This document shows, in pieces, positions 47,425 to 52,954 of a stretch of 64,000 nt of DNA. Within the stretch, counting starts at the first letter, position 1, and each line of letters starts with the position of its first letter. This stretch comes from Nonomuraea polychroma. Lineage in GTDB: Bacteria; Actinomycetota; Actinomycetes; Streptosporangiales; Streptosporangiaceae. The position numbers and the translations under genes were made by a program. Where the stretch lies: positions 2,666,001-2,730,000 of the forward strand of contig NZ_SAUN01000001.1 in NCBI RefSeq assembly GCF_004011505.1. Direction: 5' to 3'. The notes below the pieces were generated by a model. That model saw only the letters and a list, made by a program, of their open reading frames with translations, ran no database searches and was not told the origin of the DNA.

Positions 47425-48396
47425 CTACACGTCCAGGCGGCACAGGCCCTCGGCGAGGGCCTTGGTGGTGAGGCGGGTGCGGCTGTCGCAGCCGAGCTTG
47501 GCGAAGATGTGCTCCAGGTGCGTGGTGACCGTGCGGACGCTGAGCACGAGCGCGGCGGCGATCTGCGGGTTGGAGTCGCCTGCCGCGACCCGCGTGAGGA
47601 CGTCCACCTCCCTGCCGGTCAGCTCGTACGGCAGCGCGCACGGCCGCTCGGCGGCGACCACGCCCTGTAACGCCCCCTGGAACCCGACGCCCGCCCGGAG
47701 CAGCCGTAACTCGTGCCAGTGCCCGCCGTCGTCCAGCCAGAGGCCGTGCCTGGTGAGCTCACGCGAGTCGATGAACGCCCTGGCGTACGCGGCCATCGCC
47801 GGCTCGTCCCACAACGCGGCCGACGTCTCCCGCCCGGGCACCTCGCGGCGCGTTCCGAGCCGGTCGAAGGCGACCGCGCGGAAGTCGGGCGGCAGCCCCA
47901 CCGGGTCGATCACGCACCTCGTCAGGTCGGTCACGTGGGCCAGCATCGGGCTCACCGCCGCCACGAGGGCCCCGGTGAGGTGCGGGAACGCCTCCCTGGA
48001 CGCGAGGTGCAGCAGCCCCGTGTAGCGGCCCTCGCGCAGGAACAGCGGCGCGGTCAGGCCGGCCCGCCAGCCGTAGGGGGCCAGGTGACGCCGGAAATAG
48101 CGTTCGGTGTCCGGCTCGGGCATGCTCACGGGCGCGCGGGTCGCCATGGCTCTGCGGTACGCGTCCAGCCCGGCGTATTCCTCGGCGGCGTCCCGGTCGA
48201 TGCGCCGGTGGCCGTCGGAGACGACGCTGTGGTGCCGGCCCGTGGCGGGATCGAAGGCGACGAACTCATACGCGTCCAGCGGGATCACCCGGCGCAGCGC
48301 GGCCATCGCCCCGTGCGCGTCGCCGCCGCCCGCCACCTGATAGCCGACCTCGGCGAACGCCTGCAATTGGCAGACGTCCAGGGTGATCTCGGCCAC
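47425..48396 (-). CDS. LuxR-family regulator with GAF-like sensor domain
   Basis: A 323-residue protein. The N-terminal 240 residues form a GAF-type sensor (for example YEFVAFDPATGRHHSVVSDG and GLTAPLFLREGRYTGLLHLA). The C-terminal 65 residues are a LuxR/GerE helix-turn-helix (LTGREVDVLTRVAAGDSNPQ, then SVRTVTTHLEHIFAKL). The GTG at 48396 has AAAGGA four bases before it; a TTG 24 bases upstream is the alternative. It lies divergent from the threonyl-tRNA synthetase leader, separated by an AT-rich stretch. The effector is unknown. Confidence 0.83.
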   Translation of the reverse strand: MAEITLDVCQLQAFAEVGYQVAGGGDAHGAMAALRRVIPLDAYEFVAFDPATGRHHSVVSDGHRRIDRDAAEEYAGLDAYRRAMATRAPVSMPEPDTERYFRRHLAPYGWRAGLTAPLFLREGRYTGLLHLASREAFPHLTGALVAAVSPMLAHVTDLTRCVIDPVGLPPDFRAVAFDRLGTRREVPGRETSAALWDEPAMAAYARAFIDSRELTRHGLWLDDGGHWHELRLLRAGVGFQGALQGVVAAERPCALPYELTGREVDVLTRVAAGDSNPQIAAALVLSVRTVTTHLEHIFAKLGCDSRTRLTTKALAEGLCRLDV

Positions 48397-48465
48397 GGCG
48401 TCCTTTATATCATTTGCCAAACCTTGAGGTCTTCTTGAAACTTTTTTTCAGATGCTTCCGGATGT

Positions 48466-48471
48466 TAAGAT
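48466..48471 (+). promoter_or_regulatory. probable -10 element of the thrS leader
   Basis: TAAGAT ends 7 bases before the leader-peptide ATG at 48479, so transcription should begin at or next to the A of the start codon. That predicts a leaderless message. No clear -35 hexamer is seen 17 bp upstream, where a run of T lies. Confidence 0.45.
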
Positions 48472-48478
48472 GATCAGC

Positions 48479-48535
48479 ATGCAGCGCGCCTTTGTCTTCG
48501 CCACGACGACGCCGGACCTCGTCCCGGCGCGCTGA
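48479..48535 (+). CDS. threonine-rich attenuator leader peptide
   Basis: An 18-codon ORF encoding MQRAFVFATTTPDLVPAR. Codons 9-11 are three consecutive ACG (Thr) codons, and the next gene encodes a threonyl-tRNA synthetase. Ribosome stalling at these codons when charged tRNA-Thr is scarce would be the sensor of a classical attenuator. The ORF has no ribosome site and probably starts at the 5' end of the message. The same transcript region can form the alternative hairpins listed next. Leader peptides of this kind are known in actinobacteria for amino-acid genes. Confidence 0.7.
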   Translation: MQRAFVFATTTPDLVPAR

Positions 48536-48579
48536 CTCCATGCTTCCCGGGCGAACGCCCGGGAGCTGGTCGTTCGCCC
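48483..48579 (+). promoter_or_regulatory. transcription attenuator upstream of thrS-like gene
   Basis: Three pairings are visible. AGCGCGCC (48483-48490) pairs with GGCGCGCT (48526-48533) across the leader ORF. CCCGGGC (48546-48552) pairs with GCCCGGG (48557-48563) around GAAC. GGGCGAACG (48549-48557) pairs with CGTTCGCCC (48571-48579) and is followed by TTTCCC. The second and third share bases 48549-48557 and exclude each other, the signature of an antiterminator/terminator switch. Which one forms would depend on ribosome position on the Thr codons. Confidence 0.65.
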
Positions 48580-48599
48580 TTTCCCTGGAAAGGATCATC

Positions 48600-49775
48600 A
48601 TGAACGACCACCGCAGGCTCGGCCGCGAGCTCGGCATCTTCGACACCGATCCGATGATCGGCTCCGGCCTGCCCTACTGGCTGCCCGCCGGCGCGGCGAT
48701 GCGCAAGGCCATCGAGGACTACGTCCACGAGCTGGAGCGCCGCAACGGCTACCTGCACGTCAACTCGCCCGTGCTGGGCAAACGCGAGCTGTACGAACGC
48801 TCGGGTCATTGGGCGCACTACGCCGACGACATGTTCCCGCCCATGAACGTGGGCGGCGAGGAGTTCGTGCTGCGCCCCAGCCTGTGCCCGCACCACGCGC
48901 TCATCTACCGCTCGCGGCAGCGAAGTAAGCGCGAGCTGCCGCTGCGCCTGGCCGAGCTGGGCGGCCAGTACCGCTCCGAGTTGTCCGGCGTCCTCGGCGG
49001 GCTGACCAGGGTGCGGTCCATCCAGCTCAACGACGGCCACGTGTTCTGCCCGCCGGAGCAGGCCGCCGCCGAGGTGTCGGCCGCGCTCGACCTGATCGAG
49101 GCCGCGCACGCGCAACTCGGCATCCGGGCCGCGCGCTACAGGCTGTCGCTGCGCGGCGACGGCGACAAGTACGTCGACGACCCGGAGATGTGGGCGGCCT
49201 CCGAGGCCATCCTGCGCGAGGTGCTCAAGGAACGCGGCCAGGCCTACGACGAGGAGCGCGGCGAGAGCGCCTTCTACGGGCCGAAGATCGACATCCAGAT
49301 CGCCGACCCGGCCGGACGGGAGAACACCCTGTCGACCGTCCAGGTGGACCTGTACATGCCCGAGCGTTTCGACCTGCGCTACGTCGGCGGTCACCGTCCC
49401 GCCATGGTGCACCGCAGTGTCGTCGGCGGCCTGGAACGCCTGGTCGCGCACCTCATCGAGGTGCACGGCGGCGCGTTCCCCGCGTGGCTGGCGCCCGTGC
49501 AGGCGGTGGTGCTGCCGCTGTCCGACGCCGAGCTGCCGGCCGCCGAGGACCTGCTGCGCCGCTGCCTGGCCGCCGGGCTGCGCGCCGAGCTCGCGCCCGC
49601 CGACCGGGGCAGCCTCGGGGCCAGGATCAGGGCGCACCGGCTGGTGCCGTACCAGCTCGTGGTGGGGCCGCGCGAAGTGGCGAGCGGGCAGGCGGCGGTG
49701 CGGCTGCGCGACGGGAGCCAGGCGGGCGAGGTGCCCATCGAGCGTTTGGCCGCAGATTCGCGACCGTTCATCTGA
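48600..49775 (+). CDS. thrS: short threonyl-tRNA synthetase lacking TGS and editing domains
   Basis: A 391-residue class II synthetase. It contains the catalytic core, with zinc ligands by position Cys96 (RPSLCPHHAL), His147 (LNDGHVFC) and His271 (AMVHRSVVGG). Motif 2 is LGGQYRSELSGVLGGLTRVR and motif 3 VGGLERLVAHLIE with Arg280. An anticodon-binding domain spans about residues 290-391. Housekeeping ThrRS is about 640-690 residues with N-terminal TGS and editing domains, both absent here. It is probably a second, regulated ThrRS. The ATG at 48600 follows GGAAAGGA. Transcription is apparently controlled by the threonine attenuator just upstream. Confidence 0.85.
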   Translation: MNDHRRLGRELGIFDTDPMIGSGLPYWLPAGAAMRKAIEDYVHELERRNGYLHVNSPVLGKRELYERSGHWAHYADDMFPPMNVGGEEFVLRPSLCPHHALIYRSRQRSKRELPLRLAELGGQYRSELSGVLGGLTRVRSIQLNDGHVFCPPEQAAAEVSAALDLIEAAHAQLGIRAARYRLSLRGDGDKYVDDPEMWAASEAILREVLKERGQAYDEERGESAFYGPKIDIQIADPAGRENTLSTVQVDLYMPERFDLRYVGGHRPAMVHRSVVGGLERLVAHLIEVHGGAFPAWLAPVQAVVLPLSDAELPAAEDLLRRCLAAGLRAELAPADRGSLGARIRAHRLVPYQLVVGPREVASGQAAVRLRDGSQAGEVPIERLAADSRPFI

Positions 49776-49862: not shown

Positions 49863-52010
49863 GTGACCCAGCTGAGCGATCGTGAGGCCGAACTGGTCTC
49901 CGCCCACGAGCAGGAGCGCCCGGCGCGGGAACTGGGCGGGGCGCTCCGGCTCGGCGTGTGGATCGTGGGCGGGTTGTTGTCGGTCTACTCGCTCGTCGTG
50001 GTGTTCCGGCCGGTCGAGGCGCTCGAACATCGGATGACGTTCCTGGCGGTGGCGTTGCCGCTGGTGTTCCTGTGCTACCGATCGGGGCTGTCGTCGTGGG
50101 TGAGCAGGCTGCGCCGCCAAGGCCTCCGATCGGTGCTGTCGTCATGGGCCAGGAGGCTGCGCCGCGACCCGGCCAAGGTCGCTTCCGTCGATGAGGCCGG
50201 TCCGCCGGCCGGGGCCACGGTGGACGGGCGGCCGGTCCCGCCGCAGGGCGAGGGCGAGCCCGACCCGCTGGCCGGGGTGTCACGGGCGGCGGCTCACCCC
50301 GATGGAAAACGACGCCGGAGCTCGAAAGAGCGGCCCAGCGTCGCCGACTGGCTGCTGGCCGCCGCCGCGCTGGCCGTGCTGGTCTATCCGCTGGCCGACA
50401 TCGACGCGTTCCGCGATCGGGGGTCGGGCGCGGCGCTGACGCCCCTCGACATCGTGGCGGGCCTGGCGCTGACGGTGCTGCTGCTGGAGGCGGTACGGCG
50501 GACCGTCGGCTGGGCCCTGACCATCATCTGCCTCATCTTCCTGATTTATGCCTACTACGGCTCATATCTGCCGATTGACTGGACCATCGGGCATCGCGGC
50601 TTCGACCTCGGCCAGATCGTGTCGCAGCTCTACACCGGCACCGAAGGCTTCTTCGGCGTGCCGATGCAGGTGGCCGCCAGTTACATCATCCTCTTCACGA
50701 TCTACGGCGCCGTGCTCGACTTCTCGGGCGCGAGCCGCTTCTTCATCGACCTGAGCTTCGCCGCCTTCCGCAACTCCCGCTCCGCCCCCGGCCGCACCGT
50801 CACCACGGCGGGCTTCCTGCTCGGCACGGTCTCCGGCTCAGGCGTGGCGACCACGGTCAGCCTGGGCAGCGTGGCCTGGCCGGTGCTGCGCCGGGCCGGC
50901 TACCCGAAGGAGCCGGCCGGCGGCATCCTGGCGGCCGGCGGCATCGGCGCGATCCTGTCGCCGCCCACGCTGGGCGCCGCCGCGTTCATCATCGCCGAGT
51001 ACCTCCGGGTCAGCTACCTCGAGGTGCTCCTGTACGCGACGATCCCCACGATCCTCTACTACCTCGGCATCTTCCTGGCGATCGAGATCGACTCGCGCCG
51101 CTTCGGCACCCACGCCGTGCAGGTGGACGCGCCCAAGGCCGGCAAGCTGCTGCTGCGCTTCGGCTACCACTTCAGCTCGCTCATCCTCATCATCGTGCTG
51201 ATGGCGCTGGACCGGTCGGCCTTCCAGTCGGTGGTGATCGCCACGGCGGTGGCGTTCGCGCTGTCGTTCCTCGACCCCCGGCACCGGATGACGCCCAAGC
51301 GCGTCGGGCAGGCCCTGGCGAAGGGCACGCTGGAGGTTCTGCCCGTGACCGCCGTCTGCGCGGCGGCGGGCATCATCGTCGGCGTCATCACCCAGACCGG
51401 CCTCGGGCTGAACCTGAGCGCGATCATCGTGGACTTCGCCGCCGGCAACCTGCTCCTCACCACGATCATGTCCGGCCTCGCCGTCATGCTGCTGGGCCTG
51501 GCCGTGCCGGTGACCGCGAGCTTCATCATCGCCGCCGTGATCATCGGCCCGGCGCTCACCACGCTCGGCGTCAGCCAGGCCGAGGCGTACATGTTCGTCT
51601 TCTACTACGCGGTGTTGTCGGAGGTGAGCCCGCCCACCGCGCTGTCGGCGGTCGCGGCGGCCGCGATCACGGGCGGCAACACGTACCGGACGATGATGAT
51701 GACCTGGCGGTACACACTGCCGGCGTTCCTGGTGCCGTTCGCGTTCGTGCTGACGCCGAACGGCCAGGCCCTGCTCGGGCAGGGGCCGATCGGGACCGTG
51801 CTGCTGATGGCCGCGGTGTCGGCGGTCGCGGTCGCCGCGCTCGCCATGGCCACGGGCGGGCTGACCGGCGTGCCCGAGCGGCTGATGGCGGCGGTGGCCG
51901 CGGTGCTGCTGCTGTTCCTCGAGCCCGTCCCCATCGCCGCTGGCCTGGCCGTGCTGGCCGTGGCCGCCGGCGTGCACCTCCTCAGAAGAAGCAGAAGGGA
52001 CCCAGCGTGA
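49863..52010 (+). CDS. TAXI-type TRAP transporter fused permease
   Basis: A 715-residue membrane protein in which the small (4-helix) and large (12-helix) TRAP permease subunits are fused. An N-terminal helix pair and a charged cytoplasmic linker (residues 70-150) precede the first transport segment. Core blocks include GVPMQVAASYIILFTIYGAV, GSGVATTVSLGSVAWPVLRR and GGIGAILSPPTLGAAAFII, typical of the DUF3394/TRAP fused family. It probably drives sodium-coupled uptake of a carboxylate. The linker carries a 48-bp tandem duplication. Its stop overlaps the binding-protein start by 4 bases. The GTG start has GGGGAGGA before it. Confidence 0.88.
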   Translation: MTQLSDREAELVSAHEQERPARELGGALRLGVWIVGGLLSVYSLVVVFRPVEALEHRMTFLAVALPLVFLCYRSGLSSWVSRLRRQGLRSVLSSWARRLRRDPAKVASVDEAGPPAGATVDGRPVPPQGEGEPDPLAGVSRAAAHPDGKRRRSSKERPSVADWLLAAAALAVLVYPLADIDAFRDRGSGAALTPLDIVAGLALTVLLLEAVRRTVGWALTIICLIFLIYAYYGSYLPIDWTIGHRGFDLGQIVSQLYTGTEGFFGVPMQVAASYIILFTIYGAVLDFSGASRFFIDLSFAAFRNSRSAPGRTVTTAGFLLGTVSGSGVATTVSLGSVAWPVLRRAGYPKEPAGGILAAGGIGAILSPPTLGAAAFIIAEYLRVSYLEVLLYATIPTILYYLGIFLAIEIDSRRFGTHAVQVDAPKAGKLLLRFGYHFSSLILIIVLMALDRSAFQSVVIATAVAFALSFLDPRHRMTPKRVGQALAKGTLEVLPVTAVCAAAGIIVGVITQTGLGLNLSAIIVDFAAGNLLLTTIMSGLAVMLLGLAVPVTASFIIAAVIIGPALTTLGVSQAEAYMFVFYYAVLSEVSPPTALSAVAAAAITGGNTYRTMMMTWRYTLPAFLVPFAFVLTPNGQALLGQGPIGTVLLMAAVSAVAVAALAMATGGLTGVPERLMAAVAAVLLLFLEPVPIAAGLAVLAVAAGVHLLRRSRRDPA
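50078..50173 (+). repeat. 48-bp in-frame tandem duplication inside the TRAP permease gene
   Basis: The unit starting CCGATCGGGGCTGTCGTC at 50078 is repeated as CCGATCGGTGCTGTCGTC at 50126, with period 48 (16 codons). The encoded segments are SGLSSWVSRLRRQGLR and SVLSSWARRLRRDPAK. It lies in the cytoplasmic linker. Confidence 0.75.
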
Positions 52011-52954
52011 AGCGGACCATTGCGATAGTCGCCGCAGCCGTCCTTACCGTGGCGGGCTGCGGCGGCGGAGGCGCCGGCGGGTCGGGCAACCGGCTGTCGA
52101 TCGCCACCGGCGGCACGACGGGCGTCTACTACGTGTACGGCGGCGGCCTGGCCAAGCAGCTGTCGGCGAACATCGCCAACACCCAGGCCACCGCGTCGGT
52201 CACCTCGGCCTCGGTCGAGAACATCAAGCTGCTGGCCGGCGGCAAGGCCGACATCGGCTTCTCCCAGATGGACACCGCGGCCGACGCGGTCAACGGCAAG
52301 GACACCTTCACCGCCAAGCAGCCGATCAAGGCGATCGCCCGCATCTACGACAACTACGCGCACGTCGTGGTCGCCCCCGGCGTCGAGGCGACCAAGGTGG
52401 CCGACCTGAAGGGCAAGCGCGTCTCACTCGGCCCGGCCAACTCCGGCACCCAGGTCGTGGCCCGGCGCATGCTGGAGGCGGCCGGACTGAACCCCGACAC
52501 CGACATCACCAAGCAGCAGCTGTCGATCAACGAGTCGGTGCAGGCCGCCAAGGACGGCACCATCGACGCCTTCTTCTGGGTCGGCGGCCTGCCCACGGCC
52601 GGCATCACCGACCTGGCCACGAGCAAGCCGGACATGAAGATGCTCGACACGTCCGACGTCCTGGCGAAGATGCAGTCGACGTACGGGCAGCAGTACGTCT
52701 CCCTCGACGTCGACATGTCCGTCTACAAGCTGGACGGCACGGTCAAGACCGTCGGCATCGGCAACGTGCTGCTCGTGCCCGACAAGATGAGCGAGCAACT
52801 CGCGTACGACATCACCAAGACCCTGTTCGAGAAGAAGACCGAGTTGTCGGCCGTGCACCCGGAGGCCAAGAAGCTCGACGTGAAGCTCGGCCAGGAGGTC
52901 ACCCCGGTCGAGCTGCACCCGGGCGCGGCCCGCTACTACAAGGAAAAGGCCTGA
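52007..52954 (+). CDS. TAXI-family TRAP solute-binding lipoprotein
   Basis: A 315-residue extracytoplasmic receptor. The signal ends with the lipobox LTVAGCGGGG, so it is membrane-tethered. The TAXI signature begins with IATGGTTGVYYVYGGGLAKQ, followed by VTSASVENIKLLAGGKADIG and a long substrate-binding domain with FFWVGGLPTAGITDLA. It overlaps the permease gene by 4 bases (GTGA), making a binding-protein-dependent secondary transporter. A DUF1850 gene follows, as in other TAXI operons. The substrate is probably a dicarboxylate or amino acid, which is inference. Confidence 0.92.
   Translation: MKRTIAIVAAAVLTVAGCGGGGAGGSGNRLSIATGGTTGVYYVYGGGLAKQLSANIANTQATASVTSASVENIKLLAGGKADIGFSQMDTAADAVNGKDTFTAKQPIKAIARIYDNYAHVVVAPGVEATKVADLKGKRVSLGPANSGTQVVARRMLEAAGLNPDTDITKQQLSINESVQAAKDGTIDAFFWVGGLPTAGITDLATSKPDMKMLDTSDVLAKMQSTYGQQYVSLDVDMSVYKLDGTVKTVGIGNVLLVPDKMSEQLAYDITKTLFEKKTELSAVHPEAKKLDVKLGQEVTPVELHPGAARYYKEKA

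Follow-up and report, generated by a model that had tools for sequence, protein, structure and literature searches.

A conserved, probably leaderless threonine leader element upstream of an auxiliary threonyl-tRNA synthetase gene in Nonomuraea polychroma and related actinomycetes

The locus described here lies in a 64,000-nucleotide stretch of Nonomuraea polychroma DNA (hereafter the window), which belongs to an 11.5-Mb genome. It consists of a short threonyl-tRNA synthetase (ThrRS) gene preceded by a small open reading frame (ORF) and several overlapping RNA helices. The features, numbered along the window, are as follows.

48434-48450, + strand: A/T-rich stretch containing GAAACTTTTTTT, about -45 to -29 from the leader start
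48463-48471, + strand: extended -10 element TGT-TAAGAT, with TAAGAT itself at 48466-48471, 7 nt before the leader ATG
48479-48535, + strand: leader ORF encoding MQRAFVFATTTPDLVPAR and a stop; its start codon is probably at the transcript 5' end
48503-48511, + strand: three Thr codons, ACG ACG ACG, the proposed stall site
48510-48515, + strand: segment 1 (CGCCGG), able to pair with 48524-48529
48519-48529, + strand: segment 2 (TCGTCCCGGCG), 48523-48527 pairing with 48547-48551 and 48519-48521 with 48552-48554
48544-48565, + strand: hairpin A, 48544-48552 pairing with 48557-48565 around the loop GAAC; putative OFF hairpin
48549-48579, + strand: helix B, GGGCGAACG at 48549-48557 pairing with CGTTCGCCC at 48571-48579, followed by TTTCCC
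48567-48610, + strand: hairpin C, 48567-48576 pairing with 48601-48610 and 48578-48583 with 48588-48593
48600-49775, + strand: short ThrRS gene (thrS) for a 391-aa enzyme consisting of just the catalytic core and the anticodon-binding domain

The product of thrS matches TIGR00418 with 414.3 bits, above the cut-off of 383.65, and both PF00587 and PF03129, the combination of a bacterial ThrRS core. The domain search did not find the N-terminal TGS and editing domains of full-length bacterial ThrRS in this protein, and its N-terminus aligns with the start of the catalytic core. A second ThrRS is encoded elsewhere in the same genome by a 654-aa ORF, which carries the N-terminal extension typical of full-length enzymes and is 42% identical to the short ThrRS over the common part. 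Because the genome has this second, full-length enzyme, the gene downstream of the leader is, judged by domain content and alignment, an auxiliary, editing-less ThrRS paralog. Its nearest named relatives are from Nonomuraea, with identities of no more than 97%. The zinc ligands of ThrRS, one Cys and two His, have counterparts in the short enzyme by alignment. At the positions aligned with E. coli residues 488, 489, and 493, the short ThrRS has Y, M, and F, where its full-length counterpart in this genome has N, Q, and F; Gly463 is conserved in short and full-length ThrRS alike. According to PMC4389257, ThrRS of the borrelidin producer S. parvulus has Y515/T516 at the positions of human Q566/L567, and the Tyr of the short ThrRS is thus also present in that self-resistant enzyme. 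An inhibitor-resistance reading of the short ThrRS was nevertheless set aside as a weak hint only, since the Tyr is shared but, as stated in PMC11252418, L489M conferred no obafluorin resistance.

An initial reading made from the sequence alone (the sequence-only reading) had pointed to three consecutive ACG codons ahead of the synthetase gene. These are found in the leader ORF, and the run is conserved in relatives; a short ORF with a run of Thr codons before a Thr synthetase gene is what is expected of an attenuator. A second in-frame ATG is located at 48470, inside the -10 box, and would yield a peptide beginning MISMQRA; this start is disfavoured, as conservation points to 48479. A contig scan of relatives kept 80 of 386 as the set of homologous loci. 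The leader is present in all 80, with TTTP in 79 and TSTP in one (L016), and in most loci it has the form M(K/Q)RA, a variable spacer, and TTTP(E/D)xVPAR followed by the stop. Leader-bearing genera include Nonomuraea, Thermoactinospora, Streptomyces, Kitasatospora, Streptosporangium, Saccharopolyspora, Kutzneria, and Nocardiopsis.

The distribution of the leader was also followed in an even sample of 394 genomes of the class, using the strict motif ACGACGACGCCGGANNNNGTCCCGGCGCGCTGA with up to three mismatches. The motif is present in 54 of these genomes, and its reversed form, which served as the control, in none of the 394. Fifty-three of the 54 sites are followed on the same strand, at a distance of at most 450 nt, by a short ThrRS gene; the remaining site (G234) adjoins a contig edge, and the ThrRS found in that genome is on a different contig. 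With a cut-off of E < 1e-100 against the window protein, 62 of the 394 genomes contain a short ThrRS gene, spread by tally over 6 of 48 family labels. Nine of these genes are without the strict motif, seven having a looser TTTP leader and two being too close to a contig end, so that every one of the 60 testable genes in the class sample has a TTTP leader. The occurrence of the leader in every homologous locus and the tie of the motif sites to the short ThrRS argue that the leader is not due to chance, and, to judge from these matches, six or more families of the class possess the leader RNA element. A plasmid search returned one Nonomuraea record only, and two leader peptides searched against NCBIfam 20 gave no match. 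Five genomes of family f17 (G038, G162, G172, G233, and G308) have two or three ThrRS matches, none in the score range of the short ThrRS, and possibly represent a different ThrRS duplication.

The alignments and models below started from 141 sequences, comprising the 80 loci, the window, and 60 fetched regions. L085 and L088 were left out, their contigs ending too soon, as was L070, which does have the leader but was missed by the motif search (CCG then AGG); this left 138 sequences, of which 133 are distinct. The covariation alignment contained 130 rows (without L041, L091, and L092), reduced to 38 by a relatedness filter at 80% identity, and barrier modelling covered 128 sequences (without L041, L091, L092, L122, and L141). 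Some genomes are seemingly in both the loci and the fetched sets, so the rows are not independent.

Among the 133 distinct sequences, ACG is found at the first, second, and third Thr positions in 127, 132, and 133, and the codons that follow are CCG in 133, GTC in 118, CCG in 127, GCG in 129, CGC in 126, and TGA in 126. The background in 34 long ORFs of the window is 40% ACG for Thr, 52% CCG for Pro, and 39% GCG for Ala. Conservation after the Thr codons extends to the wobble bases. In L084 and L089 the sequence CCCGGCGCGCTGA is retained despite a shifted frame, which gives a different peptide end, and we regard these two leaders as a natural hint that selection may act on the end of the leader RNA and not on that of the peptide. 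L090-L092 retain TTTP and an inverted repeat of the CGCCGG/CCGGCG kind, not VPAR.

The motif TAAGAT, which had been noticed 7 nt before the leader ATG, is indeed located there and resembles an extended -10 element together with the preceding TGT. Its register relative to the leader ATG is preserved in most of the 133 distinct sequences, with T(-13) in 118, A(-12) in 107, T(-8) in 111, and C(-1) in 118; by eye, many of the remaining sequences have the -10 displaced by one base. The fraction of A at -45 to -41 is 0.39, 0.65, 0.69, 0.54, and 0.34, and within -60 to -13 the A enrichment is confined to this island, which presumably has the register of a proximal UP element if transcription begins at the leader ATG. 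The promoter scan found no -35 box and no promoter-like pair in 48200-48800. The constant register of the -10 box and the A-rich island with the leader start supports a transcript that is probably leaderless.

Folding of 48479-48600 gives z = -3.85. Within this region, the pairing of segment 1 is possible in 99.9% of cells but is invariant and gives no covariation evidence, and segment 2 can pair with the 5' arm and loop of hairpin A when a ribosome occupies the Thr codons. Two mutually exclusive hairpins sharing 48549-48557 had been proposed downstream of the Thr codon run, an arrangement expected of an attenuator, and the comparison bears out both, here named A and B, with TTTCCC following B. 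Hairpin A is GC-rich, lies 3' of the leader stop, and has 12-15 bp in many relatives and 8-9 in Nonomuraea. In the 130-row alignment, 91.7% of its cells are paired and 8 of 14 pairs have changed on both sides; for helix B the corresponding values are 95.5% and 5 of 8. Sliding the partners by 1-3 columns lowers the paired fraction to at most 0.54 (A) and 0.66 (B), and none of 500 column shuffles, a procedure that ignores kinship among rows, reaches the observed values for A or B, whether with all rows or with the 38 rows under 80% identity. In 109 of 133 sequences, no more than 5% of 100 shuffled spacers match the duplex energy of helix B, and in 81 no more than 1% do. Helix B excludes both A and C, and 48549-48554 are common to B and to the segment-2 pairing.

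Helix B had been taken for the terminator of a transcriptional attenuator, and this part of the sequence-only reading did not hold. The terminator scan found no intrinsic terminator in the window, no U-tract follows B, and many relatives, L059 among them, have a B loop of about 20 nt. The U-tract terminator that marks the transcriptional subtype of attenuator was not found after hairpin A either, where the eight following nucleotides contain 0-5 T (mode 2, mostly 2 or 3; 133 sequences). Helix B is thus unlikely to be a credible terminator. Because covariation and overlap make it an alternative to A upstream and to C downstream, it more likely serves an ON state.

Neither the identity of the ThrRS as a short paralog nor a third hairpin around its SD and start codon had been recognized at the outset. 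This hairpin, C, encloses the thrS start codon and the SD (AAAGGA, 48589-48594). Against shuffled spacers its z is -4.8 in the window and -1.5 on average in the 133 sequences, 46 of which fall within the lowest 5% of shuffles; the value for L091 is unreliable, as its thrS start is misassigned. Three or more of the six SD bases take part in pairing in 131 of 133 sequences, and an overlap of 3 nt or more between the C and B arms is seen in 125. The paired cells amount to 84% (C1) and 83% (C2), C1 slid by three columns pairs nearly as well (0.83 vs. 0.84), and after the relatedness filter (38 rows) 159 (C1) and 36 (C2) of 500 shuffles match the observed value. The case for hairpin C is therefore weaker than for A and B; our guess is that clade-specific registers account for its weak statistics. 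Masking of the SD is slightly above that given by shuffled spacers (0.29 vs. 0.34 unpaired), the latter figure arising because the spacers are C-rich, and masking the B arm raises SD accessibility from 0.29 to 0.49, where shuffled spacers alone give 0.34. Sequence comparison establishes helices A and B and the mutual overlap of A, B, and C, besides the leader ORF with its ACG run and the promoter register. In L091 and L092, distant relatives with TTTPGT leaders whose short ThrRS is 57% and 55% identical, inspection by eye places the SD within a GGCUCC/GGAGCC inverted repeat, the 5' arm of which could pair with an upstream GAGCCC; these leaders appear, as seen by eye, to follow the same logic with a different sequence.

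Apart from the terminator role given to the later hairpin, comparison upholds the sequence-only reading of a threonine attenuator in a probably leaderless transcript ahead of a ThrRS gene. The run of ACG codons, the register of the -10 box, and the association with the short ThrRS are all conserved, and a leaderless thrL of the same type has been published for S. lividans (PMC8079986). A threonine attenuator is very likely the correct reading of the thrS leader. As for how it works, we favour a translational relay as the best single mechanism, with about an even chance of being right; the element would then be a leaderless, threonine-responsive, ribosome-mediated attenuator of the thrL type. 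Such an element would hold off an auxiliary, editing-less ThrRS while Thr-tRNA is charged. With sufficient Thr-tRNA, the ribosome would complete the leader and hairpin A would close, leaving the downstream arm free for C, which would mask the thrS start codon and its SD. A shortage of Thr-tRNA would make the ribosome stall on the ACG run and free segment 2, which would pair with the 5' arm of A (the anti-A helix) and delay A; the A loop would then pair with the downstream arm as helix B, which would remove C and open thrS. Helix B would be the kinetic lock of this ON state. That the three overlapping helices form a relay that converts a brief stall on the Thr codons into a lasting open start site for an emergency, editing-less ThrRS is a tentative proposal, somewhat more likely to be wrong than right.

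Several steps of the translational relay can be followed in models. When the ribosome is placed on the Thr codons and the transcript is half made, ending at the A loop, at least three pairs are expected between the 5' arm of A and the leader segment around GUCCCGG in 132 of 133 sequences; the mean is 9.1 expected pairs vs. 5.7 when segment 2 is shuffled. With A forbidden, B forms before the SD is made in 128 of 133. The modelled barrier from the B state to an A-containing fold is about 20 kcal/mol (medians of 21.7 before and 20.6 after the SD; 128 sequences), and the ON fold has more free SD bases than the OFF fold in 78 of 128 sequences and fewer in 18. Other results speak against the relay. 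Equilibrium folding of the full leader gives a mean SD accessibility of 0.295-0.299 at every ribosome position, and forbidding A by energy penalties leaves it nearly unchanged (0.292 and 0.300), because C still forms. At the B stage, folds that contain A have a mean stability advantage of 8.4 kcal/mol over those without it, and in the modelled window fold helix B largely displaces the anti-A pairing of segment 2. Once A is forbidden, B forms equally well without a stalled ribosome (131 of 133), and the relay would therefore depend wholly on delaying A. The modelled barrier from anti-A to A is low (median 7.3 kcal/mol, 9.7 in the window), and the ON path would thus rely on speed. In the S. coelicolor leader work summarized in PMC1262725, which also counts against the relay, altered leader codons of ilvB left regulation unaffected, and the mutational work on the ilvB and leuA leaders is at odds with simple attenuation.

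A serious rival to the translational relay is transcription attenuation without a U-tract, in which hairpin A would halt RNA polymerase, either U-less or via Rho, unless segment 2 pairs with it behind a stalled ribosome, and B and C would be secondary. Hairpin A is highly stable and conserved, its competition with segment 2 has the classical antiterminator-terminator geometry, most sequences have two or three T in the 8 nt after it, and kinetic control of this kind needs no equilibrium change at the SD. The missing U-tract speaks against it, and it leaves unexplained both the covariation of the A loop with a downstream site and the overlap of that site with the SD-masking helix; we consider it possible though rather unlikely. 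A transcriptional scheme of opposite polarity was the original one, with A as the antiterminator, B as the terminator, and stalling at Thr codons favouring A. The mutual exclusion of A and B and the TTTCCC after B in the window agree with it. Given its usual footprint, however, a ribosome at the leader stop codon would reach at most the first bases of A, and A forms by default; a ribosome on the Thr codons would leave segment 2 free to act against A, and helix B is without a U-tract, all of which makes this scheme highly improbable.

To two further explanations we give hardly any credence. The near-invariant peptide end across the 80 loci (TTTPESVPAR) could be that of a nascent-chain arrest peptide sensing something besides Thr-tRNA. 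Wobble bases are conserved as well as the peptide, however, and L090-L092 keep TTTP and the CGCCGG/CCGGCG-like repeat without VPAR; the arrest-peptide reading was rejected because the frame-shifted relatives L084 and L089, which retain the RNA, contradict it. Alternatively, the leader RNA could be an operator bound by ThrRS itself, or a T-box, given that the downstream gene encodes a ThrRS and the structure stops at its SD. The thrS operator of E. coli is bound by ThrRS itself and has a Thr anticodon-like loop. By inspection, the A loops are mostly GAGU- or GAAC-like and not a conserved loop of that type, and the short ThrRS is without N-terminal domains. Searches of Rfam 15 at gathering score left the leader element unmatched in the window and 12 relatives, where the T-box model likewise gave no match, and the weak matches at the site include no T-box. 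The covariance model RF00506, the Rfam threonine operon leader, has no match at the thrS leader.

The nearest published case found is thrL (SLIV_19412) upstream of thrS (SLIV_19410) in Streptomyces lividans TK24, described in PMC8079986 as an 18-aa leader (MKRVRPFLETTPGFVPAR, then the stop) with a leaderless transcription start and one hairpin without a uridine-rich sequence, for which termination was "not clear". The window leader shares with it the VPAR end, the position upstream of thrS, and a hairpin without a U-rich sequence, and belongs to the thrL type in being an ORF that ends in TTP-xx-VPAR and a stop before thrS (PMC8079986). The S. lividans leader differs in having two Thr instead of three, and the accessible text mentions no B or C helix, short paralog, or conservation in other genera (PMC8079986). 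By our comparison, S. lividans thrL would be one instance of an RNA element that is conserved and specifically associated with a single gene, that of a second ThrRS devoid of proofreading domains. A pattern for the S. lividans leader variant was found in 0 of 121 genomes of the genus Streptomyces. Within the open-access literature searched, no other paper could be tied to this leader.

A second synthetase gene under a leader peptide is reportedly known from S. coelicolor, where Vecchione and Sello are said to have placed an auxiliary, indolmycin-resistant TrpRS under ribosome-mediated attenuation; that system differs in responding to tryptophan and is reported to be transcriptional. According to PMC1262725, classical attenuators precede trp operons, trpS, and leuS of Actinobacteria; in these, too, a leader carrying regulatory codons is combined with hairpins that exclude one another, but they differ by terminators followed by poly-U. 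This 2005 survey reports no conserved RNA structure before actinobacterial threonine operons (PMC1262725). Its translational T-boxes of actinobacterial ileS have an SD-masking hairpin and an alternative anti-sequestor, as here; unlike the window element, they are T-boxes without a leader peptide (PMC1262725). Second ThrRS enzymes for when the main one fails are also known from Anabaena, which has T1 and T2, the latter editing-impaired and induced by low zinc through Zur (PMC4787780), and from P. fluorescens, where the ThrRS ObaO gives obafluorin resistance (PMC11252418); in contrast to the window gene, the accessible parts of these two papers describe no leader attenuator. The present element suggests an on-demand spare ThrRS kept for starvation or inhibition, with a possible cost in Ser/Thr accuracy, and its anatomy yields base-level predictions for a translational, not terminator-based, attenuator in GC-rich bacteria.

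The genes on either side of the element were also compared across the 80 loci. A LuxR-like regulator gene, named by inspection, is located at 47425-48420 on the - strand, divergent from the leader. Its tblastn matches (E <= 1e-10) cover 23 of the 80 loci, L004-L026, which are of Nonomuraea type or from Thermoactinospora; the other 57, some with short flanks, gave no match. On the 3' side, the short thrS is adjoined by large membrane-transporter and solute-binding protein ORFs (49863-52954, + strand), of the TAXI-type TRAP-like kind by inspection, and the transporter start was matched in 20 of the 80 loci, all within L004-L026.
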